Below are positions 18,077 to 38,346 of a stretch of DNA of 64,000 bases, piece after piece. Numbering within the stretch: the stretch's first letter is position 1; each line of letters opens with the position of its first letter. The stretch is from Methylocystis sp. B8 (GTDB taxonomy: Bacteria; Pseudomonadota; Alphaproteobacteria; Rhizobiales; Beijerinckiaceae), in NCBI RefSeq assembly GCF_005771425.1, contig NZ_VBTZ01000001.1, positions 310,001 through 374,000 on the forward strand, written 5' to 3'. The notes under the pieces are model-generated. The model did not search any database. It saw only the letters and a program-made list of their open reading frames with translations, and was not told the origin of the DNA. The position numbers were made by a program, and so were the translations under genes.

Positions 18077-19162
18077 ATGGCTCCAGACCCCAATCCACTC
18101 CCAAAAGGAAAAGAGACGCCTCCATCCAAAATCGAAGAGGTTCACGTACTCTGGCTCACTGCTGGGCTCAGCTGCGATGGAGATTCTGTTTCCATCACCG
18201 CCGCCAGTGAGCCGAGCATTGAAGACGTCATGCTCGGCGCCATACCAGGACTGCCGAAGGTCCACTTGCATAATGCGGTGCTGGCGTACGACGTCGGCGA
18301 CGATTTCATGCAGGCGTTTCACAAGGGCGCGCGTGGGGAACTCGAACACTTTGTGCTGGTGGTCGAAGGATCGATTCCCAACGAGAAGCTGAGCGGGGAT
18401 GGGTATTGGGCGGCAGTTGGCACGGATACATCGACAGGCCAACCAATCAAAACGACCGAATGGATTGATCGGCTGGCGCCAAAGGCGCTCGCGGTAATCG
18501 GCGCCGGCACATGCGCCACTTTTGGCGGCATCCATGGGATGAAAGGGAATCCGACCGGCTGCATGGGCTTGCAGGACTATCTTGGAGTCGAATGGAAATC
18601 CAAGGCCGGCTTGCCCATCGTGAACGTGCCGGGCTGCCCCGTTCAGCCGGACAATTTTATGGAGACATTTCTTTATCTACTGCGTCAGCTCGCTGGGCTC
18701 GCGCCGATGATTCCTGTCGATGGCCATGGTCGTCCGCGGTGGCTGTTCGGCCCAACCGTTCACGAAGGATGCGATCGCGCCGCTTATTATGAGGAGGCGG
18801 ACTTCGCGCACGAGTACGGCTCGCCGAAGTGCTTGGTGAAGATCGGCTGCTGGGGTCCGGTGGTTCAGTGCAATGTGCCCAAGCGCGGCTGGATCGCTGG
18901 ACTTGGCGGCTGTCCGAATGTTGGCGGCATTTGTATCGGCTGCACGATGCCGGGCTTCCCCGACAAGTTCATGCCGTTCATGGACGAGCCGCCCGGGGGG
19001 CGCATCTCATCGACGTTAATCCAGCCCTACGGCGTTCTGATCCGAAATTTGCGCAAGATCACTAATCACACGCTCAACAGAGAGCCGAAGTGGCGCAATA
19101 AGGAGCCGACCTACACCACTGGCTACGATCCTGAACGGCCGAGCAAGACTCATCCACTCTAA
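18077..19162 (+). CDS. hhyS: Group 1h [NiFe]-hydrogenase small subunit
   Basis: This subunit carries the chain of iron-sulfur clusters that takes electrons from the NiFe site. The 361 residues include WLTAGLSCDGDS at about 26-37. Where other hydrogenases have C-x-G-C, this has C33-x-G-D36, the 3Cys-1Asp proximal cluster described for the group 1h ('actinobacterial') enzyme of Ralstonia. Further ligands lie in GAGTCATFGG, NPTGCMGL, NVPGCPVQP, VHEGC, SPKCLVKIGCWGPVVQC and GGICIGCTMPGFPDKF. There is no Tat signal and no C-terminal membrane helix, so the enzyme should stay in the cytoplasm. It lies 17 bases before hhyL. Confidence 0.95.
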   Translation: MAPDPNPLPKGKETPPSKIEEVHVLWLTAGLSCDGDSVSITAASEPSIEDVMLGAIPGLPKVHLHNAVLAYDVGDDFMQAFHKGARGELEHFVLVVEGSIPNEKLSGDGYWAAVGTDTSTGQPIKTTEWIDRLAPKALAVIGAGTCATFGGIHGMKGNPTGCMGLQDYLGVEWKSKAGLPIVNVPGCPVQPDNFMETFLYLLRQLAGLAPMIPVDGHGRPRWLFGPTVHEGCDRAAYYEEADFAHEYGSPKCLVKIGCWGPVVQCNVPKRGWIAGLGGCPNVGGICIGCTMPGFPDKFMPFMDEPPGGRISSTLIQPYGVLIRNLRKITNHTLNREPKWRNKEPTYTTGYDPERPSKTHPL

Positions 19163-19179: not shown

Positions 19180-20997
19180 ATGGTCGACCTCGCAACCCGT
19201 CCTTCAGCGCCTCCGAGCCCCAAAAAAGCGTCGCCCAACCTCGTCGAGAAAAACTGGGATCCGATTACCCGTATCGTCGGTAGTCTCGGAATTTTCACAA
19301 AGATCGATTTCGAGAATCGGCATGTCGCCGAATGTCACAGTACGTCATCGATTTTCCGCGGCTACAGCATCTTCATGAAGGGCAAGGATCCTCGTGACGC
19401 CCATTTCATCACCAGCCGGATATGCGGCATCTGCGGCGACAATCACGCGACATGTTCGGTCTACGCGCAAAATATGGCCTACGGAATTAAGCCGCCGCCT
19501 TTGGCTGATTGGATCATCAACCTCGGCGAAGCCGCGGAATATATGTTCGACCACAACATCTTCCAGGACAATCTGGTGGGCGTCGACTTTTGCGAGCAGA
19601 TGATCAAGGAAACCAATCCAAGCGTCTGGGCCAAGGCGCAAAGGACGCCGGCGCCGCATGCTGATGCGCACGGATATCGCACGATCGCCGAAATCATGAC
19701 GGCGCTTAATCCATTTTCTGGCGAATTCTATCGTGAGACATTGATTGTCAGCCGGTATACGCGTGAGATGTTCGCCCTGATGGAGGGACGCCATGTGCAT
19801 CCCTCCACCCTTTATCCGGGCGGCGTCGGCACCGTGCCCTCAAACCAGCTCTTCACTGAATATTTGACTCGTCTCGTGCGGTACGCCGAGTTCATGAAGA
19901 AATGCGTGCCGCTGCACGATGATTTGTTCGACTTTTTTTACGAGGCGTTGCCGGGATATGAGGAAGTCGGACGTCGACGAATTCTTATGGGCTGCTGGGG
20001 ATCGTTCCAGGATCCAGACCATTGTGACTACAACTACAAGAACATGACGCACTGGGGTCGAAAGATGTTCGTCACCCCAGGCGTTGTCGTGGACGGCAAG
20101 CTCGTCACGACGGACCTCGTCGACATCAATCTGCAAATTCGCATTCTGCGCGGGCAGTCCTATTACGAGTCATGGGACGATTGCGAAACCTTCGTCAAAA
20201 ACGACCCGTTAGGCAATCCTGTCGATCAGAAACACCCGTGGAATCAGACGACCATTCCAAGGCCGCAGAAACGAGACTTCGACAAGAACTACTCATGGGT
20301 GATGTGTCCGCGCTGGCTCGACAAGAGCAGCGGAGATCATCTTGCGCTCGACACCGGCGGGGGCGCCTTCGCGCGACTCTTCGCAACAGCGCTGGCGGGA
20401 CTCGTGGACATCGGCGGCTATGTCAAAGCGACGGGCGATAGCGTCAAGATTAACCTGCCCAAGACAGCGCTCAAACCTGCAGTGGAGTTTGAATGGAAGG
20501 TTCCGAAGTGGAGCAATGCGATCGAACGTAATCGGGCGCGCACCTATTTCCAGGCCTATTGCGCTGCCGCGGCTTATTACTTCCTCGAGCAGGCGTTCGC
20601 AGAAATACAGGCCGGCCGCACAAAGACCTGGACCGAGTTCAAAGTTCCTGAGGAGGCGATCGGCTGCGGCTTTCATGAGGCGGTGCGCGGCGTGTTGTCT
20701 CACCATCTCGTCATAAGAGACAAAAAAATCGCCAACTATCATCCTTATCCGCCGACGCCTTGGAACGCGACGCCGAGGGACGATTTCGGAACGCCCGGAC
20801 CTTACGAAGATTCGATACAAAACACGCCGATTTTTGAGGAGAACGGCCCGGACAATTTCAAAGGCATCGACATCATGCGCGCCGTGCGAAGTTTTGATCC
20901 CTGTCTACCGTGCGGCGTCCACATGTATGTCGGCGGCGGGAAAACTATCGAGACCCGGCATTCGCCGATGTTTGGCGCATCGCGGAAATCGCCATGA
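19180..20997 (+). CDS. hhyL: Group 1h [NiFe]-hydrogenase large subunit
   Basis: This is the catalytic subunit that splits H2 at a Ni-Fe(CN)2CO centre. Of 605 residues, the N-terminal ligand motif RICGICGDNHAT gives C82 and C85. The C-terminal motif DPCLPCGVH gives C575 and C578 and ends at H581. The 24 residues after that His would be removed by the maturation protease encoded downstream. The L1/L2 wording (CGDNHATC, DPCLPCGVHMY) is that of the high-affinity group 1h enzymes found in soil actinobacteria and some proteobacteria, which oxidise atmospheric H2. It overlaps the next gene in ATGA. Confidence 0.96.
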   Translation: MVDLATRPSAPPSPKKASPNLVEKNWDPITRIVGSLGIFTKIDFENRHVAECHSTSSIFRGYSIFMKGKDPRDAHFITSRICGICGDNHATCSVYAQNMAYGIKPPPLADWIINLGEAAEYMFDHNIFQDNLVGVDFCEQMIKETNPSVWAKAQRTPAPHADAHGYRTIAEIMTALNPFSGEFYRETLIVSRYTREMFALMEGRHVHPSTLYPGGVGTVPSNQLFTEYLTRLVRYAEFMKKCVPLHDDLFDFFYEALPGYEEVGRRRILMGCWGSFQDPDHCDYNYKNMTHWGRKMFVTPGVVVDGKLVTTDLVDINLQIRILRGQSYYESWDDCETFVKNDPLGNPVDQKHPWNQTTIPRPQKRDFDKNYSWVMCPRWLDKSSGDHLALDTGGGAFARLFATALAGLVDIGGYVKATGDSVKINLPKTALKPAVEFEWKVPKWSNAIERNRARTYFQAYCAAAAYYFLEQAFAEIQAGRTKTWTEFKVPEEAIGCGFHEAVRGVLSHHLVIRDKKIANYHPYPPTPWNATPRDDFGTPGPYEDSIQNTPIFEENGPDNFKGIDIMRAVRSFDPCLPCGVHMYVGGGKTIETRHSPMFGASRKSP

Positions 20998-21515
20998 GCG
21001 TGGAAGCGCGTGAGACGGAGACGATCGAGCAAGCGCTGGTTCGGCTCGAAGCGCTCACGGCCGCGCTTGAGCGAATGTCAGATGATAGGGACCGAGAAAC
21101 AGCGCGTGGGCTAGTGACGCTTCTGCTCGATCTGCATGGCCGAGCGCTTGAACGGCTGAGCGCAATTATTGCGGGCTCAGGCGGCGGCCCGGCCTTAATT
21201 GAACAGATCAGTAAGGAAAAGGAAATCGCGGCGATCTTGCTGCTTCATGGGCTGCATCCACAGAGTGTTGAGGAACGCCTGCTGCAGGCCATCGCGCGCA
21301 TGCAGCCAAAGTGGAACGCGCGCGGCCTCCATGTGGAACTCACCACAGCGGAGAAAGCCTTCGCAATCGTTCAACTGCGGCGGAATGGACTTGAAGAGCC
21401 TGGCGATCAGTTACGATTTGAGATTGAGGCCGCGCTCACCGATGCGGCGCCCGACCTCGACGACATTTTGATCGAAATGGACATGACCGAAATTTACGCC
21501 GAACCCGCCGCCTAG
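20994..21515 (+). CDS. NifU C-terminal-like protein lacking cysteines
   Basis: The 173-residue protein has a helical N-terminal half (about 5-60, leucine-rich). The second half, with pattern LLQAIARMQPKWNARGLHVEL...AIVQLRRNG, resembles the NifU/Nfu scaffold domain. The loop that should hold the cluster-binding CxxC reads GLEEPGDQ, and the whole protein has no cysteine. So it cannot carry an Fe-S cluster in the Nfu way and may instead act as a structural or docking protein for hydrogenase assembly. Genes of this kind recur beside group 1h hydrogenases. ATG at 20994 overlaps hhyL's stop, which fixes the start. Confidence 0.72.
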   Translation: MSVEARETETIEQALVRLEALTAALERMSDDRDRETARGLVTLLLDLHGRALERLSAIIAGSGGGPALIEQISKEKEIAAILLLHGLHPQSVEERLLQAIARMQPKWNARGLHVELTTAEKAFAIVQLRRNGLEEPGDQLRFEIEAALTDAAPDLDDILIEMDMTEIYAEPAA

Positions 21516-21533: not shown

Positions 21534-22157
21534 ATGGAAAGGATACAATCAGGTAACTGGGCGTCTCGGCTGCGGCGAATCCTATCCGTAGCACAAGAGG
21601 AGCATTGCGACTTCTGCTCGAAGCCTATTGATCCGCGGCACACGCATTTGATCGAACGCGTGACACGAAAGTTCTTTTGCGCCTGTCCTCAATGCGCGCT
21701 CCTCTTGGGCGAGGGAGAGCGCTTTGCCATCGTAAACCCGCGTATCCATCCGTTGCATAATTTCGAGCTGAACGACGCGGAATGGCAGAGCTATTACATA
21801 CCGATTGACCTCGCTTTCATTTTCCGCAGCACGCCGGCGCAACGCCCGCTAGCGATTTATCCAGGACCAGCTGGAGCGATCGAGGCGTATTTCGCCGATG
21901 ACGCATGGGCCCGCTTAATCGATGCAAATCCAGTGCTGACCGACCTACATCCGGATGTAGAGGCGCTGCTTGTCAATCGAATGAATGGCGCCCGAGAATA
22001 TTACCTCGTTTCCATCGATCGCTGCTATGCCCTGATTGGGGTAATGCGCAGGCATTGGCGCGGATTATCAGGCGGCGCCGAGGTTTGGGAGTCTGTTCAA
22101 GACTATTTTCAAAAGCTGCGCGATGGCGTCGAGATGGCGGAGGCGGCGCATGGTTGA
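21534..22157 (+). CDS. DUF5947 family protein (hydrogenase-cluster protein)
   Basis: This 207-residue protein has a cysteine-rich N-terminal part: CDFC at about 22-25, then CACPQC about 30 residues later. The spacing suggests a zinc ribbon or rubredoxin-like site. The rest is a mixed alpha/beta domain (ELNDAEWQSYYIPIDLAFIF, then REYYLVSIDRCYALIGVMRR). To my knowledge this family is known mainly from group 1h hydrogenase loci, where its role is undetermined. Metal handling or redox transfer for HhySL are reasonable guesses. It overlaps the next gene by eight bases. Confidence 0.78.
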   Translation: MERIQSGNWASRLRRILSVAQEEHCDFCSKPIDPRHTHLIERVTRKFFCACPQCALLLGEGERFAIVNPRIHPLHNFELNDAEWQSYYIPIDLAFIFRSTPAQRPLAIYPGPAGAIEAYFADDAWARLIDANPVLTDLHPDVEALLVNRMNGAREYYLVSIDRCYALIGVMRRHWRGLSGGAEVWESVQDYFQKLRDGVEMAEAAHG

Positions 22158-22797
22158 TCTCGACTTCAGCATCGAAGACGTCAGAGTCGAAAAATATTCA
22201 GCTGCGCCCCTGCTGTTGTTCGCCCTGCATGTCGTCAACCGGACGCCTGAGCTGCCTGTCCTTAACGTGATGCTGAACTGCCAGATCCGCATTGAGCCAA
22301 TGCGGCGGAGATATGCCGGCAACGAGCAGGAGAGACTTTCTGATCTCTTCGGCCATCCTTCACGGTGGGGCGAGACGCTGCGCAGTCTCCTTTGGATTCA
22401 TGCGAATGTTTCCACTCCCGCGATCGATTCGAAGCTGGAAGTCGATCTGCCGGCGCCGTGCAGCTATGATTTTAATATAGCGGCGACGAAATATTTCCAC
22501 GGCCTCGAGCAGGGCGACGTCCCTCTCAGATTCCTTTTCAGCGGCTCAATATTTTATCGCGACAGCGAAGGCAGGGTACAGATTGAACAGATTCCTTGGA
22601 GTAAGGAAAGCGCTTATCGCCTGCCCATTGCGGCATGGCGCGCCATGATGGAAGATTACTATCCGCAAAGCATGTGGCTTCGTCTGCATCGTGACGCTTT
22701 CGAGGAGTTGGACAGCTACCGGCGACTGCGCGGGTTCCCGACATTCGAAGGCGCCTTGCAGTCGCTGCTCGAAAAGAAAGCCGCGGAGGCGACATGA
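22150..22797 (+). CDS. DUF6084 family protein (hydrogenase-cluster protein)
   Basis: This protein of 215 residues is rich in beta-strand patterns (VEKYSAAPLLLFALHVVNRT, LEVDLPAPCSYDFNIAATKYF), which suggests a beta-sandwich. A helical C-terminal tail contains HRDAFEELDSYRRLRGFPTF. There is no signal peptide, membrane helix or cofactor motif. I recognise it as the DUF6084 family that accompanies DUF5947 in group 1h hydrogenase clusters; the function is unknown. The start at 22150 overlaps the end of the previous gene, and the stop overlaps the next start in ATGA. Confidence 0.78.
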   Translation: MVDLDFSIEDVRVEKYSAAPLLLFALHVVNRTPELPVLNVMLNCQIRIEPMRRRYAGNEQERLSDLFGHPSRWGETLRSLLWIHANVSTPAIDSKLEVDLPAPCSYDFNIAATKYFHGLEQGDVPLRFLFSGSIFYRDSEGRVQIEQIPWSKESAYRLPIAAWRAMMEDYYPQSMWLRLHRDAFEELDSYRRLRGFPTFEGALQSLLEKKAAEAT

Positions 22798-24152
22798 ATC
22801 TCGACTCCATCAAGGCGATTACCAATGCTGTTCTTTATGAGGGCTACATTCTCTATCCCTACCGGCCATCGTCGATCAAAAATCGTCAGCGGTGGACCTT
22901 CGGCGGCGTGTTTCCAAAGGCGTTCGATCAGCAGGGCGATTCGTCGCTGATGGAGACGCAGATTCTGCTCCGGGGCGGGGAACATGCGGTGTTTCGCGTC
23001 CATATCCGTTTCTTGCAAGTTGTTAACCGCGAGGTCGGACGACTCGTGACGCCGGCGCAAGAGCCGCCGGAACAAGAAGAGCCGGCATTGACGCTCGTTC
23101 CGAACCTTAATGTCGATGGTCGCGAGCTGCTGGCCTGGGAAGAGGCAATTGAACGAGAGGTCGCTTTGGAGCCGATGCGGCCGATCGATATTCAAGATGC
23201 CATTCTCGCAACGCCGTTCCGCTTTGAAGGCGCGCGTGATTTCGAGCCGGTAAGGACTGGGGACGGCCGCGTCGTCGCTGCTTTCGTTCGTTCGTCCCAT
23301 ACGATCGAAGGCGTCGTCGAAGCGAAGGCGCAGAGGCTCGCGCCCGATCTATGGAAGCTGACCGTTCGGATCGAAAACGTCACGCCGCTTGCCGAGGCCC
23401 ATCGCCAAGACCGTGCGGCGGCGCAGCTTCGCGCCTTTGCCTCAACGCATACAATCCTGATCGTCGAAGACGGCGCCTTCGTCTCGTTGCTCGATCCTCC
23501 CGACGATCTACGCGAGGCTGCGGCGCAATGTCGAAATGTCGGCGCCTTCCCTGTGCTCGTCGGCGGTCGAGACAATCGCGCTGTGCTCTCTTCGCCGATC
23601 ATCCTCTATGATCACCCGGCGATCGCGCCGGAAAGTCCTGGCGATTTGTTCGACGGCACCGAGATCGACGAAATCTTAACGCTTCGCATCCTCGCGATGA
23701 CCGACGCCGAGAAACGTGAGATGGCCTGTGTCGACGCGCGTGCGCGTGCGCTTTTGGAGCGCACGCACGCCTTGACGGCCGAAGATATGGCGCGGTTGCA
23801 TGGCGTCATGCGCGACGGTCAATCGCAAACCAGTCTGACGGATGCGCTGACAGAGATCAAAGAGCGTGAGAAGCCTAGGCTCGTCTCACTGCTGGAAAGC
23901 GGCCGCGCTCTGTGTGTGGGCGCCCGCGTGCGGCTACGTCCGAAGTCGGGCGGTGACATCATGGATATCGCGCTCAGAGACAAGGTCGCCGTTGTCGAGG
24001 CGATCGAGCGCGATTTCGAGGACCGTGTTCATGTCGCTGTGACTTTGATTGACGACCCTGGGCGCGATCTCGGCGCAGAAGGCTTTCCCGGTCATCGTTT
24101 CTTTTTCAGTCAGGAGGAGGTCGAACCGATTGCTGCTGGAGAAGGACCATGA
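22794..24152 (+). CDS. Conserved hydrogenase-cluster protein, unknown function
   Basis: This 452-residue soluble protein opens with NAVLYEGYILYPYRPSSIKN and QRWTFGGVFP, a strongly patterned N-terminus that I associate with genes of group 1h hydrogenase loci. A beta-rich middle follows (residues 50-260; SSHTIEGVVEAKAQRLAPDL). A helical region comes next (about 290-350; LTLRILAMTDAEKREMACVD). A small C-terminal beta-domain (GARVRLRPKSGGDIMDIAL) resembles an SH3-like or KOW-type barrel. I cannot assign catalytic residues. Its fixed place before the protease gene suggests a role in assembly or in linking HhySL to an electron acceptor; this is inference. Confidence 0.75.
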   Translation: MNLDSIKAITNAVLYEGYILYPYRPSSIKNRQRWTFGGVFPKAFDQQGDSSLMETQILLRGGEHAVFRVHIRFLQVVNREVGRLVTPAQEPPEQEEPALTLVPNLNVDGRELLAWEEAIEREVALEPMRPIDIQDAILATPFRFEGARDFEPVRTGDGRVVAAFVRSSHTIEGVVEAKAQRLAPDLWKLTVRIENVTPLAEAHRQDRAAAQLRAFASTHTILIVEDGAFVSLLDPPDDLREAAAQCRNVGAFPVLVGGRDNRAVLSSPIILYDHPAIAPESPGDLFDGTEIDEILTLRILAMTDAEKREMACVDARARALLERTHALTAEDMARLHGVMRDGQSQTSLTDALTEIKEREKPRLVSLLESGRALCVGARVRLRPKSGGDIMDIALRDKVAVVEAIERDFEDRVHVAVTLIDDPGRDLGAEGFPGHRFFFSQEEVEPIAAGEGP

Positions 24153-24691
24153 CGTCGATCCTCGTCGCCTGTATTGGCAACATCTTTAATGGTGATGACG
24201 CTTTCGGAGTCGAGGTGGCGCGGCGGCTTTCACAAGGCGTGCTCCCAGATGGCGTGCAAGTGATCGATTTCGGCATTCGTGGGATCGATCTTACCTATGC
24301 GCTGATGGAGGGCTATGACGCCGTCATTCTCGTGGACGCCGCGCAGCGAGGGGAAGCGCCCGGCGTGGTCTCGATCGTGGAGCCAGCGCCGGTCGAGGCT
24401 GAAAATAACTCGCTGGAGGATTTGGCGCTTTCGCCACATGATCTCGATCCGGCGAAAGTTCTTCGTTTGGTGTCCGCGCTTGGCGGAACTTGCCGGCGTG
24501 TGCTCCTCGTCGCCTGCGAGCCGCTGACGCTCGGCGGTGACGATGGGGTCATGGGTCTAAGCGGGCCAGTCGCTGCGGCCGTCGATGTCGCTGCTGAGAC
24601 AATAGAGGAACTGATCGATGAAATGATGGCGCCGTCACCCGCCGGGGGCTCGCGCGGCGCGCTCTTATCGGCCGAAAGGAGAATGTCATGA
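24149..24691 (+). CDS. Hydrogenase large-subunit maturation protease (HyaD/HupD/HycI family)
   Basis: The enzyme clips the C-terminal tail of the nickel-loaded large subunit, here presumably HhyL after H581. The 180-residue protein opens with VACIGNIFNGDDAFGVEVAR, the family motif, whose GDDAFG supplies the first acidic nickel ligand. The second ligand is the Asp in AVILVDAAQ and the third the His in LSPHDLDPAKV. The C-terminal 30 residues look disordered. It is linked by ATGA overlaps to the genes on both sides. Confidence 0.9.
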   Translation: MTSILVACIGNIFNGDDAFGVEVARRLSQGVLPDGVQVIDFGIRGIDLTYALMEGYDAVILVDAAQRGEAPGVVSIVEPAPVEAENNSLEDLALSPHDLDPAKVLRLVSALGGTCRRVLLVACEPLTLGGDDGVMGLSGPVAAAVDVAAETIEELIDEMMAPSPAGGSRGALLSAERRMS

Positions 24692-24795
24692 GCGGATGGG
24701 AGATTGCGGGGATCATCCTTGGGGTTATCATCCTTGGATTGCTGATCATGAACGCGAAAGACATCTATCGTTACATCAAGATCAGCAATATGTGA
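24688..24795 (+). CDS. 35-residue single-pass membrane protein in the hydrogenase cluster
   Basis: The ATG overlaps the protease stop codon as ATGA, and AAAGGAG lies upstream at the right spacing. The peptide has a short N-terminus (MSGWE), one hydrophobic helix (IAGIILGVIILGLLIM) and a basic tail (NAKDIYRYIKISNM). The charge pattern predicts a cytoplasmic C-terminus. It is too short for ordinary gene finding. It may belong to the small-protein family labelled DUF6893 (from memory, unchecked). Since neither HhyS nor HhyL has a membrane anchor, this peptide could tether the enzyme or its assembly complex to the membrane. hypF begins 15 bases later. Confidence 0.75.
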   Translation: MSGWEIAGIILGVIILGLLIMNAKDIYRYIKISNM

Positions 24796-24810: not shown

Positions 24811-27207
24811 ATGAGTTTCGTGGCGGAGCAATCGCAGGCGCTCGAATTTCGGGTGCGTGGTCGCGTGCAGGGCGTCGGCTTTCGCCCGACGGTCTGGAGG
24901 ATGGCGCGTGAACTTGGCCTTGCCGGCGAGGTTCTCAACGACGGCGAGGGCGTATTGATCCGCGTCAGCGGCGATCAATCGCAAATTGTGGCGTTACTTC
25001 GACAAATCGAGCGAGAACCGCCGCCGCTTGCTCATATCGATGGCATCGAGAGGCAACGATACAGCGGTAAGCTGCCGCTGGATTTCCGCATCGCCGAAAG
25101 CATCGGCGGAAACGCCCGCACGCAAGTCGCGCCAGACGCGGCGCTCTGCGCGGCCTGCGCGGCGGAGTTGCGCGATCCCAGCGAGCGCCGCTTTCGCTAT
25201 CCTTTCACCAATTGCACGCATTGCGGACCGCGACTCAGCATTGTGACGGCCATTCCCTATGACCGTGCGACGACGACAATGGCGCCATTCGCGCTATGCG
25301 AAGCGTGCGAGGCGGAATACCGCAATCCAAGGGATCGTCGTTTTCACGCCGAAGCTGTGGCATGTTCGGCGTGCGGTCCGACCGCATCGTTCATTGCCTT
25401 AGGCCAGGATGACCTTCCGCGCGACGGCGACGGCGACGCGATCGAAGTTGCGGCCCGCTTCATCGCGCGAGGCGACATCATCGCCGTGAAGGGGCTCGGC
25501 GGCTATCATCTGGCGTGCGACGCAACGAATCCTGAGACTGTCGCGCGTCTACGTCTGCTGAAACGCCGTGACGCAAAGCCTTTTGCGCTGATGGCGCGCG
25601 ATCTTGCCGTGATACGTCGCTACTGCGCGGTTGATGCTCTCGAGGAGCGCGAACTCACGAGTGTCGAAGCCCCGATTGTTCTGCTGCGGGCGACGGGTCA
25701 GAAGCGCCTGCCTCAGGCTGTAGCGCCCGGACTCGATACGCTCGGCTTCATGCTGCCGACGACGCCGTTGCATTTATTATTGATAGAGCAGTTCGAGCAT
25801 CCGCTCGTGATGACGAGCGGCAATATTTCGGAGGAGCCTGCGGTCGTCGATGACGCCGAGGCGTGTCGACAACTTGCCGATATCGCATCTTTCGCTTTGA
25901 CGCATGATCGCGCTATCGCCAATCGGGTCGATGACTCGGTCGTGCGGATCATGGGCGAGCGATCGAGAGTTCTTCGCCGCTCTCGCGGCTACGCGCCGGC
26001 ATCGCTTCGGTTACCCAAGGGCTTTGAGAGCGCGCCTGACCTGCTCGCGATGGGCGGCGAGCTGAAGTCTACGTTCTGTCTGCTCAAGGACGGAGAGGCG
26101 GTTCTGTCGCAGCATCAGGGCGATCTCGAAAACGCTGCGACGTTCAATGACTATCGAAAGAATCTCTCTCTCTATGAGCGAATGTTCGATCACGCGGCGT
26201 CCGCGATCGTGATCGACCGGCATCCGGAGTATCTTTCGTCGAAACTAGGGCGCGTCGAGGCCGAAAGACGCGGCGCACAGCTGATTGAGGCGCAACATCA
26301 TCACGCTCACGTCGCCGCCTGCCTTGCCGAGAACGGCCGACCGCTCGAGGCGCCGCCGGCGCTCGGGATCGTGCTCGACGGCCTCGGCTTTGGCGACGAC
26401 GGCGCGATATGGGGCGGGGAATTTTTACTGGCGGATTATCATGGCTATGAGCGGCTGGCGCGATTGAAGCCGATCGCTATGCCCGGGGGCGCTCAGGCGG
26501 CGCGCGAGCCCTGGCGCAATCTTTATGCGCATCTCAGAGCGGCGGGCGAGCTCAACGCTGCACGCCTGGCAGACGAATGGATCGCATTCGAAGGCAAGCC
26601 TCTTGCGACGATCGACAGAATGATCGCGCAAGGCGTCAATTCGCCGCTAGCCTCCTCTTGCGGTCGTTTGTTCGATGCGGTCGCAGCGGCGATCGGCGTC
26701 TGCGCCGACCGTCAGGCTTATGAAGGCGAGGCGGCGGCGCAAATCGAGGCGCTTGCGGCCACGGCGTTGAACGAAGACAGCGGCTATCAGTTTGACATTT
26801 CCGGGTCTGAACTCATTGAGATCGACCCGGCGCCAATGTGGCGCGCGATACGCGATGATCTGCGGGAAGAAGTTGCTGCATCAGCGATCACTCGCCGGTT
26901 CCACCTTGGCCTTGAAAATGCGATCGGTGAAGTCGTCGCGCGGCTAGCGGACGAGCGAGGTTTTGAAACGGTGGCGCTTTCCGGCGGATGCTTCCAGAAT
27001 CGCCTACTCTTTGAAAGCGTCCACGAGAGTTTGCGAGAAGCAGGATACGAGGTGCTGACCCATGCTGACGCGCCCGCCAACGACGGCGGGCTCTCGCTGG
27101 GCCAGGCCGCGATCGGCGCCGCACGTCTGATGAGAACAGCTGACCTGAAAAGAGCTGGAGAGAACCACACATGTGTCTCGGCATTCCCGGCTGCATCGTT
27201 AGCATAG
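24811..27207 (+). CDS. hypF: Carbamoyltransferase HypF (hydrogenase cyanide-ligand synthesis)
   Basis: HypF turns carbamoyl phosphate into a carbamoyl group on HypE, the source of the CN ligands of the NiFe site. The 798 residues show the full domain order: acylphosphatase (RVRGRVQGVGFRPTVWRMA, about 11-29), two zinc fingers (CAACAAEL with CTHCGP, and CEACEAEY with CSACGP, about 110-195), a YrdC domain (GDIIAVKGLGGYHLACDA), and a Kae1-like domain (HHHAHVAACLAENG; VLDGLGFGDDGAIWGGEF). The ATG at 24811 begins 15 bases after the 35-residue membrane gene. The C-terminus overlaps hypC by 37 bases. Confidence 0.97.
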   Translation: MSFVAEQSQALEFRVRGRVQGVGFRPTVWRMARELGLAGEVLNDGEGVLIRVSGDQSQIVALLRQIEREPPPLAHIDGIERQRYSGKLPLDFRIAESIGGNARTQVAPDAALCAACAAELRDPSERRFRYPFTNCTHCGPRLSIVTAIPYDRATTTMAPFALCEACEAEYRNPRDRRFHAEAVACSACGPTASFIALGQDDLPRDGDGDAIEVAARFIARGDIIAVKGLGGYHLACDATNPETVARLRLLKRRDAKPFALMARDLAVIRRYCAVDALEERELTSVEAPIVLLRATGQKRLPQAVAPGLDTLGFMLPTTPLHLLLIEQFEHPLVMTSGNISEEPAVVDDAEACRQLADIASFALTHDRAIANRVDDSVVRIMGERSRVLRRSRGYAPASLRLPKGFESAPDLLAMGGELKSTFCLLKDGEAVLSQHQGDLENAATFNDYRKNLSLYERMFDHAASAIVIDRHPEYLSSKLGRVEAERRGAQLIEAQHHHAHVAACLAENGRPLEAPPALGIVLDGLGFGDDGAIWGGEFLLADYHGYERLARLKPIAMPGGAQAAREPWRNLYAHLRAAGELNAARLADEWIAFEGKPLATIDRMIAQGVNSPLASSCGRLFDAVAAAIGVCADRQAYEGEAAAQIEALAATALNEDSGYQFDISGSELIEIDPAPMWRAIRDDLREEVAASAITRRFHLGLENAIGEVVARLADERGFETVALSGGCFQNRLLFESVHESLREAGYEVLTHADAPANDGGLSLGQAAIGAARLMRTADLKRAGENHTCVSAFPAASLA

Positions 27208-31659: not shown

Positions 31660-32541
31660 TTAAATCGCCGCCTCTTTAACATCGACGCTGACGTCCAAAT
31701 CTTGACCGCCGGCGCCAAGAATTACGCCGTCGATCGGCGAAACATCCGCATAGTCGCGTCCGATGGCGATAGCGATATGGTCATTTCCGACCGCCATGGC
31801 GTTCGTAGGATCAAGGTCGAGGAAGCCAAATTCTGGTCCGCACCAAACAGACACCCACGCATGGGTTGAATCGGCGCCTTCCAGCCGCGCCTGGCCAGGA
31901 GCGGCGACGGTGCGAAGATAGCCGCTGACATAGGCTGCCGGCAGGCCGAGGCCGCGTAGAGCCGCGATCATGATGTGTGCGAAGTCCTGACAGACCCCAC
32001 GGCGGCGCGCGAAGGCCTGCGCGATAGGGGTAGCGACATGCGTCGCATCCGTATCGTAGGCGAAATCGGCGTGGACGCGCATCATCAGTTCAAGCGCGCC
32101 TTCGAGAAGAGGCCGACCGGGCGAAAAGCTTTCTCGCGCGTAATTCGTCGCCGCGTCGAACAGCGGCGCGAAGCGGCTCACATAGATGTAATGGGCGGGA
32201 GACGAAGCCGCGAGTACGTTCGATGCATAAGCTGCGTTCCTCACGATTTCCCATGCCGGCGTCAACGCCGGAGCAGGGGGTGGCGCCCGATCCACCTCGA
32301 CGCGCGCCGCGAGGGCGATTTGCAGTTTCGTGTGGGGCTTGAGAATGTGCGCCTCGCAAACACGATTTCCGTGAAAGTCGATCCTGTCGCTGACGACTTC
32401 AGCCGCTGGCGACAGCTCGATACGATCGGACAGCACGGTTTGACCACGATCATTACGTGGGAGCAGACGCATGGCGCAACGCGCCGAAGCGACAGGTGCG
32501 TCATAATTGTACGTCGTGCGATGGGCGATGTCGTATATCAC
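31660..32541 (-). CDS. Transglutaminase-like cysteine protease-fold protein
   Basis: This soluble 293-residue protein has the bacterial transglutaminase N-terminal beta-domain (YDIAHRTTYNYDAPVASARC) and the catalytic core: Cys in RRGVCQDFAHIMIAALRGLG, His in DSTHAWVSVW, and Asp in FLDLDPTNA. No signal peptide is present. GTG at 32541 is chosen because it overlaps the stop of the ATP-grasp gene (GTGA) and similarity begins right after it. It is the third gene of a set of proteins whose joint reaction (amide formation or hydrolysis) has not been settled. The substrate is unknown. Confidence 0.88.
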   Translation of the reverse strand: MIYDIAHRTTYNYDAPVASARCAMRLLPRNDRGQTVLSDRIELSPAAEVVSDRIDFHGNRVCEAHILKPHTKLQIALAARVEVDRAPPPAPALTPAWEIVRNAAYASNVLAASSPAHYIYVSRFAPLFDAATNYARESFSPGRPLLEGALELMMRVHADFAYDTDATHVATPIAQAFARRRGVCQDFAHIMIAALRGLGLPAAYVSGYLRTVAAPGQARLEGADSTHAWVSVWCGPEFGFLDLDPTNAMAVGNDHIAIAIGRDYADVSPIDGVILGAGGQDLDVSVDVKEAAI

Positions 32542-35054
32542 GCGATCCGCGACGGCTGATAATTTGCTGCGCCATCGGCGCCATGCGTGAAATAGCGCTC
32601 GGCAATTTGGTCGGCGAGAGTCATCAAGCGCTGCTCGAACGCAAGAATTATTGCTGCATCCAAATGGCGCGCGTCCGCCGACTCGAGCTCGGCGCGTAGC
32701 CTGACGGAAAGTCGTCGCGGCGACTCCATGACTCCGTCGTTGCGCAGAACGGGCAGCGCCGCGAGATGTTCGTCGATGCGCATGGCCTGAAAGGCGACAG
32801 ATCGCGGATTGAACGGATCGAGCATCGCCATGTCGAGGACGGGCGCCAGCGCGGCGCCGGCGATGTAACGCGAACGATAAGTGATCTGTGAATCGAGGAG
32901 ATCGAGCAGCGCATCGAGCGTCTCGACAGTCGCCTCGTCGCTGGCCAGCTGTCGAGCGAAACGGCAAGTCCCGATGGCGCGTTCGATCCTTCGGCCAAGA
33001 TCGATAAAGCTCCAGCCGGCGACCCGGTTGAAATTTTCGTCAATCAGCCCGGACAGCGCCGCCAGCGTATGGAGCGAACGCTCAACGATTTCCAGAGCTT
33101 CGGGTTCCGTTATGGCGCGCGCGTCTGCGCGCATCAGACGCGTTTCGATGCGTCCGATAAGCTGCCAGGCATCGTGCGACAGGCGTTCACGCACGATCGA
33201 TGCCGCACGTTTTGCATTGCGCACGACCGACAGCGCTGAACCGTAATTGTCGGCGCCGGCCGCTGCCGCCCACGCGATCTGTGTCGGATTCATGTCCGCT
33301 ATGTCTTCCGGCGCGGCGCCCCAGGCGATCAGCAGTCGCGCAAGCCGTTCGATCGACTGGCGCCCTTGAAGATCGATGTGCTGGGGTTCGCCCAACCTTG
33401 CCCTCAGCGACCGCACGATGCGCAATGTCGCTTCGGCGCGCTCAAGATAGCGGCCCATCCAGAAAAGATTATCGGCGGCGCGGCTTGGCAAATTGCCGAG
33501 CGTGCGCACGATCGGCGGATCTTCGTCGGAGGGCAGCAGCGTCGACCATTCGATCGGACGGCTTGTCAGCACCCACACGTCGCTTGATTGCGCCCCCTCG
33601 TCCATGGACACGGCGCGCGCGTCGAGCCGGTGGGAGATGCGACAAAAGCCTCCAGGCATCACGGTCCATCCGTCAGCCGTCGCGGCGGCGAAAACGCGTA
33701 GCACGAAAGGTCTCGGCGCCAGGCGATCGTCGGTCCAGGCCGGAGTGGTGGAAAGATTGATCGGCTCCTGAGCGACATAGTCGACGCCGCGCTGATTTAT
33801 AGCGTCGATCACCCGCATGCGCTCTTCGCTCGTAAGCGCATGGCCAAGCGCCTCGCGACGTTCGCCAAATCCGGGAAGACGTTCGGTGAACGCGCCGCTG
33901 ATCGCAAATTCGCCTAATGCGTTGATAACCTGTCTGCGTTCGCCCTCCCGTCCGCACCACCAGCTTGTGACATTAGAAAGTTTGAGGCTCTCGCCGAGCA
34001 CGCGCTTTGACAGTTCCGGCATGAAGCTCATCAGCGCGCGCGACTCGATGACGCCCGCGCCGGGCATATTGGCGACGACAACAGCGCCCCGACGGATGGC
34101 TTCGAACATGCCCGCGACGCCGAGCCGCGACGAAGCATTTTGCTCCAGCGGATCGCACCAATCCGCGTCGACGCGACGCCAAATCGCATCGGCGCGCTTG
34201 AGGCCGGCGATGGTGCGCACATGGAGCTTGCCGTCGCTCGCGACGAGATCTTCGCCCTCAACCAGCGTAAAACCGAGATAACGGGCGAGATGCACCTGTT
34301 CGGAATAAGTTTCGCTCCAGGCGCCGGGCGTGAGCAGGCAGATCCGCGGGTCGACGCGCTCCGCTGCGCGGGACATGCTTGCGCGGAATTCTCGAAAGAA
34401 CGGCGCCAGGCGCTCGACATTTAGGTCTCGATAGAGACTTGGAAGCGCGTGCGACAGCACGAGCCGATTCTCCAACGCGTAGCCGGCGCCCGAAGGCGCC
34501 TGAGCGCGATCGCCGAGAACACGCCAATTGCCGTCTGGCCCTCGCCCCAGGTCGGCGGCGTAAAAGCGAAGCCAGCGTCCACCCGGCGGAGCGACACCAC
34601 ACATCGGTCGAATAAAATCTTGAGACCCAGCGACGGCTGCGGCGGGCAGCGCGTCCTCCGCGACAAGGCGCGCGTCGCCGTAAATGTCATGCAGGACGCG
34701 ATCGAGAAGTTCGGCGCGCTGCGCGACGCCTGCCGCGATGTCACGCCATTCGAACTCCGGGATCAGCAGCGGCAAACGGCCCAGCGGCCAGCTGCGCTCC
34801 TTGGTTTCGCCATGAACGCGATAGGAGATTCCCATGTCGTCGATGCGGCGGCCGGCTGCGGCGAAGCGCTGTTCCAGCCCCGCGTCGCCTAATGCCGCGA
34901 GCGATTCCAGGAACTGACGCCAATGCGCGCGCGGACGCCCGTCGCGGTCGAGCAACTCATCAGGCGCGTCGCGCTTCGGCGCATAATCGGCGATCCAGGC
35001 CGCGACGCGGCTTGACGCCTCGTCCCTTTCGATGTCGCGCTCAGCGGACAACAC
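32538..35054 (-). CDS. Circularly permuted ATP-grasp and alpha-E domain fusion
   Basis: This protein of 838 residues has two parts. Residues about 1-480 are a circularly permuted ATP-grasp ligase ([78 protein letters not shown]). Residues about 510-830 are the all-helical alpha-E domain ([40 protein letters not shown]). In many genomes these are two adjacent genes; here they are fused. The family is predicted to join an amino acid or peptide to a carboxylate with ATP. It starts with GTG, overlapping the upstream DUF2126 gene by 14 bases. Confidence 0.92.
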
Positions 35055-38000
35055 GCCTCCGAAGATCCAGTGTCAGCGGAAACTCATGGCTCGCCTCCTC
35101 GCGCGGCGGATCGACTGGTCCGGGCGTATGTCCATGATCCTGGAATCGCGCCAATCGCCGCGCTTCGGCTTCGTTACTGTTGACGGGGAAGGCGTCGTAA
35201 TTGCGGCCTCCGGGGTGCGTTGCATGATAGACGCAGCCGCCCAGAGAACGCCTGCTCCAGCAGTCGATAACGTCGAAGGTCAGCGGGGCGTCGACAGGAA
35301 GAGTCGGATGCAGTCCCGAAGGCGGCTGCCAGGCCTTGAAGCGCACGCCCGCCACCGCCTCGCCTGGGGCGCCAATGCTCGTCATCGGCACGCGATGTCC
35401 ATTACAGGTGATGACGTGTCGACCAGGAACGAGCCCGTTCGCCTTGATCTGCAACCGCTCAAGCGAAGAATCGACGTAGCGCACCGTGCCGCCGTTTCCG
35501 CCTTCCTCGCCCATCACATGCCAAGGTTCGAGCGCTCCGCGGACCTCCAGGTGAACGCCGCCATGTTCGACACTGCCAGCCAATGGGAAGCGGAACTCGC
35601 GCTGCGCCTCGAACCATTCCGGCTCGAAGGCGTAGCCCGCTCTATGCAAGTCGTCGACAACGCCAAGGAAATCCTGCCACACGAAGTGCGGCAACATGAA
35701 TTTATCATGCAGCGCCGTTCCCCAGCGCACCAGATCACCGTGCTGTGGCTCCCGCCAGAACCAGGCGACGAGCGCACGAAGCAACAGTTGCTGCGCGAGA
35801 CTCATGCGGGCGTCGGGGGGCATTTCGAACGCGCGAAATTCCACCAGTCCGAGACGCCCCGTCGGTCCCTCGGGCGAATAAAGCTTGTCGATACAGATTT
35901 CCGCGCGATGAGTATTGCCGGCGACATCCACCAGCAGATTGCGAAACAGCCGATCGACGAGCCACGGCGGGACATAGCCTTCGCCGGGCGACGGCGTCTG
36001 AGCTAGGGCGATCTCCAACTCGTAAAGCGAGTCGTGTCGCGCTTCGTCGACTCGCGGCGATTGGCTGGTCGGTCCGATGAACAGCCCGGAGAATAGATAG
36101 GACAGCGACGGATGGCGCTGCCAATAGAGCACGAGACTCTTCAGCAGGTCAGGGCGGCGCAGAAAGGGCGAGTCGGCGGGCGTTTCGCCCCCAAGCACCA
36201 CATGATTGCCGCCGCCGGAACCAATCTGTCGTCCGTCGACCATGAATTTGGCGGTCGTCAACCGCGCCTGCCGCGCTTCCTCATAGAGCGCGGTCGTGGT
36301 TTCGACGGCCTGCCCCCATGTCGCGGCCGGGTGAATATTGACCTCGATGACGCCCGGATCTGGCGTCACCTTAATCACTTCGAGACGCGGATCGTTCGGC
36401 GGCGGATATCCTTCGATGTGGAGCGGCGCCCCCGTGGCTTTGGCGCTTTCCTCCACGGCCTCAAGCAATTCGAGGTAATCTTCGAGCGTCGCTACGGGAG
36501 GCATAAATACGCAGAGATGGCCGTCGCGCGGTTCGATGGTGAAGGCGGTCCGCACAGCGCCTTCAACAATGGACTGTTCATGAACATCTTGACGCGCGTG
36601 GCCGCCCCCGACCTGCCCCGCCTGAATGCGTCGAAAATGTCCAGGCTCCGGTAAGGGATCTCGCGGAACGAAGGGGTCCTGCGGAAGGACGTGGGGATAT
36701 TCGTCTTCCGACAGCTTGGGCAAAGACGTTACGGGAAGCCGCAGTCCGATTGGCGAATCGCCCGGCGCCAAGAACAGTTTTCCGCGACGAAGCGTCCATT
36801 TTTCTGAGGTCCAGCGCGACTGGGAGTCGGCGCGCGCATTCCAGCGCTGGATCGGCAGGACGAAGCCGGTGGGTTTGCTCAGACCGCGCTCGAAAACCCG
36901 CATCATGCGCGAGCGTTCCTCCGCATCGTCGATCTTGGGATCGGACGGATCGACGTTGATCGGAAGGGCGCTCTCCTTCACCATCCAATGCGCGGGATCT
37001 TCATAGGCAGGCACCGCATGGTCGGCGCCGACGCCGAGTCGCTCTGCGAGATCGTGCACAAAGACTTCCGCGTCCGCCGTGGTCGCGCCCTTCGGCTTCG
37101 TGATATCAGCGACGAACTGCGGCTCGGACCAAATTGGCTTGCCGTCGCGCCGCCAATAAAGACCAAAGGCCCAGCGCGGCAGGCTTTCGCCGGGATACCA
37201 TTTGCCCTGGCCGTAATGCAGAAAGCCGTTTGGCGCGAAGCGTTCGCGCAGCCTACGAATGAGATCGTCGGCCCGCTCGCGCTTGCTTGGGCCGGTCGCT
37301 ACGGTATTCCATTCGGCGGACTCGAAATCGTCAATCGAGACGAACGTCGGCTCGCCGCCCATGGTAAGGCGAATGTCCAGCGCTTCAAGGTCGGCGTCTA
37401 CTTTTTCTCCGAGCGCGTCGAGTCGGCGCCATGCTTCATCGGAAAAAGGCGCGGTGATGCGCGGCGCTTCATTGATGCGATCGACGCGCATCTCGAAACC
37501 GAATTCAACTTGAGCTGGCTCTACGAAGCCCGATATAGGCGCCGCGGAGCGGTAATGCGGCGCGCCGCATAGCGGCAAATGGCCTTCCCCGCAAAAAAGG
37601 CCCGAGGTCGCGTCGAGACCGACCCAGCCGGCGCCGGGCAGGAAAACTTCCGTCCAGGCGTGCAGATCGGTGAAGTCGTGATCGGTTCCTTTCGGGCCTT
37701 CGATGGGATCGGTGTCGGCCTTCAGCTGAATGAGATAGCCCGAGACGAAACGCGCCGCGAGACCAAGCCTGCGCAAGATCTGCACGAGGAGCCAAGCGGA
37801 ATCGCGGCACGAGCCTGACCCAAGCGCGAGAGTCTCTTCCGGCGCTTGCACGCCAGGCTCCATTCGGATGACGTAACGAATATCGCGGTGCAGACGAGCA
37901 TTAAGCTCGACGAGAAAATTGATGGTTCGCGTCTTTTCCCGTGGGAGACTCTGGACGAAGGCATTCGTCAGGGGTCCGACGTCCTCGGGTTCGAGATAGG

Positions 38001-38346
38001 CGGCAAGCTCTGTTTTCTGTTCTTCAGGATAAGCGAAGGGAAAGTCTTCAGCATAAGGCTCAATAAAAAAATCGAAGGGATTGTAGACGGCAAGCTCCGC
38101 CAGTAGATCGACCTCGATTTTGAATTCGCTCGCTTTCTCCGGGAACACGAGACGCGCCAGCCAATTGCCGTTCGGGTCCTGCTGCCAGTTTATGAAGTAG
38201 TCCGAAGGCGCGATCTTGAGCGAGTAGCTCGACACCTTCGTGCGACAATGCGGCGCCGGGCGCAGGCGAATGATCTGCGGACCCAGCGAGACAGGCCGGT
38301 CATATTTGTAGTGCGTGATGTGATGGAGGGCGATCTGGATCGACAC
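35041..38346 (-). CDS. Large transglutaminase-family protein with DUF2126
   Basis: This 1101-residue protein starts with a transglutaminase N-terminal domain ([20 protein letters not shown]) and a transglutaminase core (catalytic Cys in [20 protein letters not shown], His in [12 protein letters not shown], Asp in [10 protein letters not shown]). The rest is DUF2126 (about 320-1095), with glutamine-synthetase-like features such as [22 protein letters not shown] and [10 protein letters not shown]. It is the first gene of the minus-strand set and lies divergent from the zinc peptidase gene. It is cytoplasmic by lack of a signal. The reaction is unproven. Confidence 0.93.

Follow-up and report, generated by a model that had tools for sequence, protein, structure and literature searches.

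A 35-residue membrane peptide of group 1h [NiFe]-hydrogenase loci and its possible role as a membrane partner of the enzyme

A small open reading frame inside a hydrogenase operon of Methylocystis sp. B8 is, judged by its sequence, a real and usually unannotated gene that accompanies the group 1h [NiFe]-hydrogenase across at least six phyla. Its reality, already claimed in the original prediction, is borne out by conservation between phyla, co-occurrence with the large-subunit gene hhyL, purifying selection and its decay where hhySL has been lost. The peptide is probably (at about 0.55) a dedicated membrane partner of the enzyme, tethering the cytoplasmic HhySL. Group 1h hydrogenases are a main route of atmospheric H2 uptake and have no known membrane subunit. 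A 35-residue gene that is near-universal in 1h loci offers a specific and easily deleted candidate for the membrane question, and may be missing from heterologous expression constructs designed on annotated genes.

The peptide gene and its cluster

The window is the whole stretch of DNA analysed (64 kb). The operon around the peptide is a group 1h [NiFe]-hydrogenase cluster with the order hhyS, hhyL, NifU-like, DUF5947, DUF6084, a 452-aa protein, protease, peptide, hypF and more hyp genes. Its features are as follows.

18077–19162, + strand: hhyS, group 1h small subunit, without a strong transmembrane segment (sequence, hydropathy)
19180–20997, + strand: hhyL, group 1h large subunit (sequence and family match)
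20994–21515, + strand: NifU-like protein in the HhyE position, without a Pfam match of its own (homologues annotated as NifU family)
21534–22157, + strand: DUF5947 protein (Pfam)
22123–22797, + strand: DUF6084 protein (Pfam)
22794–24152, + strand: conserved hypothetical protein of 452 aa, encoded in 82 of the 83 complete 1h loci
24149–24691, + strand: HycI-type hydrogenase maturation protease (family match)
24675–24681, + strand: Shine-Dalgarno site AAAGGAG, 6 nt 5' of the ATG (sequence; an SD-like site is retained in relatives)
24688–24795, + strand: DUF6893-like single-helix membrane microprotein, small ORF of 35 aa (sequence, family profile)
24694–24750, + strand: predicted transmembrane helix, residues 3–21 (hydropathy, AlphaFold2)
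24757–24792, + strand: C-terminal tail KDIYRYIKISNM, residues 24–35, with invariant Arg28 and Met35 (conservation among relatives)
24811–27207, + strand: hypF (family match)

The closest solved structure to the hhyL product is 5AA5 (HofG), the sole PDB match at E≤1e-50. The 452-aa protein belongs to no Pfam family and is as universal in 1h loci as hhyS. After hypB, the minus strand (31660–38346) encodes two proteins that look transglutaminase-like by eye and one of 838 aa, with no apparent relation to the hydrogenase.

The coordinates, start, stop and sequence first given for the peptide (MSGWEIAGIILGVIILGLLIMNAKDIYRYIKISNM) were confirmed exactly, as were the AAAGGAG site and the ATGA overlap with the protease stop, which amounts to 4 nt because the protease ORF ends at 24691. 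The overlap is not conserved: it occurs in 5 of 16 loci checked, and a gap of 21–73 nt separates the genes in most others. A purine-rich SD-like site is also retained upstream of the peptide gene in relatives. A scan of both strands for small ORFs (ATG start, 25–60 aa, strong Shine-Dalgarno motif, 19-mer hydropathy of at least 2.0) returned this peptide as the single match in the 64 kb. Automatic calling had been expected to miss the gene, and five RefSeq records that were inspected carry no CDS for it, their locus tags continuing in steps of five past the site. The sequence is not entirely new to databases, as the family already stands in Pfam as DUF6893 (PF21833).

The window peptide scores 20.1 bits (E=6.6e-4) against DUF6893, under the gathering cut-off of 24.6. 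Its residues 9–35 of 35 align to profile positions 6–32 of 32, the match reaching the C-terminus as in a protein of about 32 residues. Matches at E≤1e-3 were obtained for 44 of 48 collected relatives (best E 5e-16); the Cupriavidus necator copy reaches 38.9 bits and a copy from a presumed Methylacidiphilum 14.9. By sequence, the peptide appears to belong to DUF6893, which it resembles in size, transmembrane segment and C-terminal signature, with the window copy below the cut-off. Run over whole genomes, the Pfam model matched nowhere, the peptide's own genome included, and was uninformative; a profile built from an alignment was used instead. Pfam states no function for the family, and neither DUF6893 nor a tie to group 1h hydrogenases was found in the literature searched, which covered few subscription journals. 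The peptide is known as a DUF; its companionship with the group 1h hydrogenase and its candidacy as an anchor appear to be new within the searchable literature.

The family shares one transmembrane helix followed by the C-terminal signature P-D/E-x-x-R-Y-h-K/R-h-x-x-M-stop. Among 72 non-redundant tails (less than 80% alike), Arg(-8) and Met(-1) are present in 72, Tyr(-7) in 70 and Pro(-12) in 58, an invariance that is somewhat overstated because the sequences were collected with a profile favouring the motif. One diverged group (L028, L136, L137, L142) has a broken motif and a C-terminal extension. An acidobacterial long form of about 65–80 aa (L041, L042, L047, L048, L050, L059, L064, L065, L152) carries the helix, a linker of about 20 residues and the same PDxxRYLKLRxM tail. 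Some Verrucomicrobiota, Chloroflexota and Acidobacteriota have two peptide genes in tandem, as in L083, L129 and L155, or with a short form paired with a long one, as in L045 and L057/L153.

The AlphaFold2 model, for which four alignment rows derived from plasmid records were excluded, predicts a helix over residues 3–21, a break at Asn22 and a second helix over residues 23–34 (mean pLDDT 92.6). The 19-mer hydropathy of the peptide is 2.32 versus at most 1.52 in the other cluster proteins tested, HypE excepted, which reaches 1.75 in a segment internal to the protein. The hydrogenase proteins themselves contain no convincing transmembrane segment by hydropathy. The description of the peptide as the only membrane protein of the cluster holds by this measure, since it is the sole clear one among the cluster proteins tested. 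The single helix with a basic tail was likewise recovered: one transmembrane helix is predicted, and the tail (mean net charge +2.7) is more basic than the N-terminus (+1.0) in 43 of 48 peptides. The idea that the tail forms an amphipathic helix was rejected, its hydrophobic moment being 0.34 versus 0.41 for shuffled tails.

Occurrence, gene order and selection

Loci with hhyL were drawn from plasmids, 80 genome contigs and targeted genome regions, and were called complete when at least 3.2 kb lay 5' and at least 4.8 kb 3' of hhyL (n=83). The peptide (E<0.01) is encoded in 73 of the 83, on the hhyL strand in 72 of these; by comparison, 79 have the protease, 72 the NifU-like gene and 71 the DUF6084 gene. 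Peptide-bearing loci come from Pseudomonadota, Actinomycetota, Acidobacteriota, Chloroflexota, Verrucomicrobiota and Planctomycetota. Loss of the reading frame in related loci had been named as the result that would speak against the gene; the frame is conserved there. Loci first counted as negative were mostly short contigs. For L066 the peptide was found where the cluster ends (L121), the genome of L096 has it in a second cluster (L130), L040 has it at a weak score (E=0.02), and L028, L136, L137 and L142, also scored negative at first, hold the diverged version. No peptide was found in the 1h loci L100, L138, L141 and L157. The genome of L096 and L130, one of the Pirellulales, combines an orphan hhySL pair lacking accessory genes with a second, complete 1h cluster.

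A site between the protease and hypF had been expected in other 1h loci. The peptide is present in most of them, and its site varies within the cluster. It usually lies 3' of the protease gene; in mycobacteria (L023) it lies 5' of it, and in Verrucomicrobiota upstream of hhyS (L068, L070, L073, L079, L083, L149). An actinomycete subclade (L139, L143, L144, L146, L147) has the peptide after DUF5947 and the protease moved upstream of hhyS, and one acidobacterium (L121) has the peptide after hypB. In two genomes presumed to be Methylacidiphilum (G781, G891), the peptide (for example MKLWRYLFLILFAWVIVAIVIPSFPGFVRYLRIRQM) directly precedes hhyS, with the protease on the opposite strand. Their gene order matches the published one of SolV (PMC5364354), and on this ground we regard them as SolV and Kam1. 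A canonical, unannotated copy is carried by C. necator pHG1 (L021). In the Methylocystis ND1 MAG (L010:5657-6454, L029:13822-14619), protease and peptide share one uninterrupted frame; a read-through protein is possible there, and the peptide retains its own Shine-Dalgarno site and ATG.

Co-occurrence was assessed in five genome draws totalling 801 genomes, with a peptide threshold of E≤1e-3. The peptide was detected in 72 of the 84 genomes that carry a 1h-type hhyL and in 8 of the 717 that do not. Among relatives the counts were 17/17 versus 3/44 (Fisher p 2e-12) and among actinomycetes 32/41 versus 1/175 (Fisher p 6e-29), where inspection added four canonical and three divergent copies. Acidobacteriota gave 5/6 versus 0/133, Chloroflexota 16/17 versus 4/184 and Verrucomicrobiota 2/3 versus 0/181, the third verrucomicrobial copy being in place at E=0.005. 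Seven of the eight exceptions without hhyL are remnants of 1h clusters after hhySL loss (G001, G027, G033, G468) or broken contigs of such clusters (G984, G1094, G1112); the eighth (G1006) is a chance match internal to a long frame and without the tail. Over the five draws, the peptide behaves as a gene encoded in 1h loci and nearly absent where there is no 1h hydrogenase. No peptide was detected in three Chloroflexota genomes whose hydrogenase is more distant (about 565 bits). Searches over the full length of 40 genomes or plasmid records showed a single copy in most of those bearing the peptide. Solo copies off the cluster were seen in Acidobacteriota (L123, L124, L125, L126, L151, L043), in genomes that also carry hhyL; a search with the window proteins found no hydrogenase genes in the neighbourhood of L123–L126 and L151.

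Among relatives the peptide shows dN of 0.05–0.12 and dS of 0.6–1.0, and omega in those with hhyL is 0.09–0.21. Two genomes of the same genus as the window (G027, G033) lack hhyL and keep hypF, still preceded by the peptide frame, along with hypC and hypD. Their peptides (MSEWEIAGRVFGAAILGLPIMNAEEPYRYNKIGHM and MSGGEIAGRVIGAAILLLPIMNAEEPYRSNKIAHM) have decayed: isoleucine to arginine and leucine to proline changes fall in the transmembrane segment, and the conserved D-I/L pair has become E-P. Omega of the peptide against hhyL-bearing relatives is 0.33–0.68, a rough value because 35 codons give few sites; hypF in the same genomes stays at 0.16–0.21. Between G027 and G033, every change in the peptide is non-synonymous. 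As the peptide decays while hypF remains constrained, it is kept for the hydrogenase or for genes lost together with it, and not for hypF. The protease was lost along with hhySL in both genomes. In G001 (L003), an hhyL fragment abuts peptide and hypF, and the peptide retains 89% identity, in keeping with a recent loss. In G468 (L145), a relic of a deleted 1h cluster, hhyS fragments lie beside an intact peptide and protease.

Possible roles of the peptide at the membrane

Judged by its sequence, the 1h enzyme is cytoplasmic, and its subunits carry no anchor or signal of their own. In Methylacidiphilum fumariolicum SolV, 1h activity in solubilised membranes exceeded that of the soluble fraction more than 2.5-fold, and the membrane-bound enzyme had an affinity above that of the purified one (PMC7174314). 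Membrane association of group 1h enzymes has been linked to their high affinity, and the membrane link of HhySL, which has no transmembrane helix or signal, was described as "unknown" (PMC7174314). In Mycobacterium smegmatis no membrane subunit of Hhy was found (PMC6883350), and Methylacidiphilum Kam1, SolV and V4 lack HhyE (PMC6688271). An anchor role is plausible and agrees with the reported membrane association of 1h enzymes, whose HhySL lacks a transmembrane segment and signal (PMC7174314). The presence of the peptide in 1h loci across phyla and its decay on loss of the enzyme make it a strong candidate for the missing tie.

As a tether, the helix would insert with the N-terminus out and the C-terminus in, according to the positive-inside rule, and the RY...M tail would dock cytoplasmic HhySL or an associated protein. 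Docking could keep the enzyme weakly attached to the inner membrane, and from there it might pass electrons to the quinone pool. We infer translation, insertion, topology, docking and the effect on affinity alike. A wider proposal, in which the peptide is a general overlooked 1h subunit whose RY...M-COOH tail docks the enzyme and so enables atmospheric H2 to be oxidised with high affinity into the quinone pool, falls a little short of even odds. Against a tether stand the 1h enzyme of C. necator, described as cytoplasmic (PMC7174314) although L021 has a canonical peptide, the four loci in which no peptide was found, the acidobacterial solo copies off the cluster and the tail's amphipathicity, which is no greater than that of shuffled tails.

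Known anchors offer limited parallels. The HucM stalk of the group 2a hydrogenase Huc of M. smegmatis was considered for a shared role, the membrane association of a soluble [NiFe]-hydrogenase that oxidises atmospheric H2. HucM, a protein of 188 aa, forms an amphipathic coiled-coil tube that attaches peripherally to lipid head groups (PMC10017518). Whereas a protein of that type is long, amphipathic and helical and forms a tetrameric tube, the peptide has 35 aa and one hydrophobic transmembrane helix. Cytochrome b subunits and the C-terminal helices of small subunits were considered as membrane anchors of group 1 hydrogenases. Such anchors are either haem proteins with several transmembrane helices, attached to periplasmic enzymes, or a helix acting in cis. 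The peptide, in contrast, would act in trans on a cytoplasmic enzyme; it has a single transmembrane helix instead of several and contains no histidine that could ligate haem.

The main rival to the tether is a membrane-located helper of assembly or maturation that brings the pre-hydrogenase, the protease or conserved cluster proteins to the membrane and is absent from the finished enzyme. It fits the data as well as the tether does and is rated here as rather unlikely. The peptide gene often directly adjoins the protease gene, on either side, and the two are fused in frame in one Methylocystis, as a helper would suggest. The decay in G027 and G033 does not separate the two readings, because the protease was lost together with hhySL. 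The peptide is, however, not tied to the protease: they lie apart in the actinomycete subclade, where the protease is 5' of hhyS and the peptide after DUF5947, and on opposite strands in the presumed Methylacidiphilum genomes; the peptide persists in L085, a locus that yielded no protease. It also decays while hypF, hypC and hypD persist.

Less probable still is a structural subunit present in several copies, forming a platform on the quinone side, similar in role to the HucM stalk, and giving access to quinone besides tethering. The invariant tail with its C-terminal methionine would suit a defined binding site, tandem copies exist in some loci (L083, L129, L155), and the peptide is kept in L149 and L150, where the HhyE-like and DUF5947 genes are absent. 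Its 35 residues hold no cofactor ligands, however, and a PDB search with the peptide profile gave one chance match (E=2), leaving neither a solved structure nor a homologue as a template for modelling.

A leader peptide or a device for translational coupling of the downstream gene is very improbable. The ORF is short and ATGA-coupled to the protease in the window, yet its amino-acid sequence, and not merely its frame, is conserved across phyla, its 3' neighbours differ (hypF, hypC, hypA, hhyS, protease) and the overlap is not conserved, which largely refutes this role. A chance ORF, conceivable for a mere 35 codons, is refuted by dN of 0.05–0.12 against dS of 0.6–1.0, profile matches across phyla and co-occurrence with hhyL, and its probability is close to nil.
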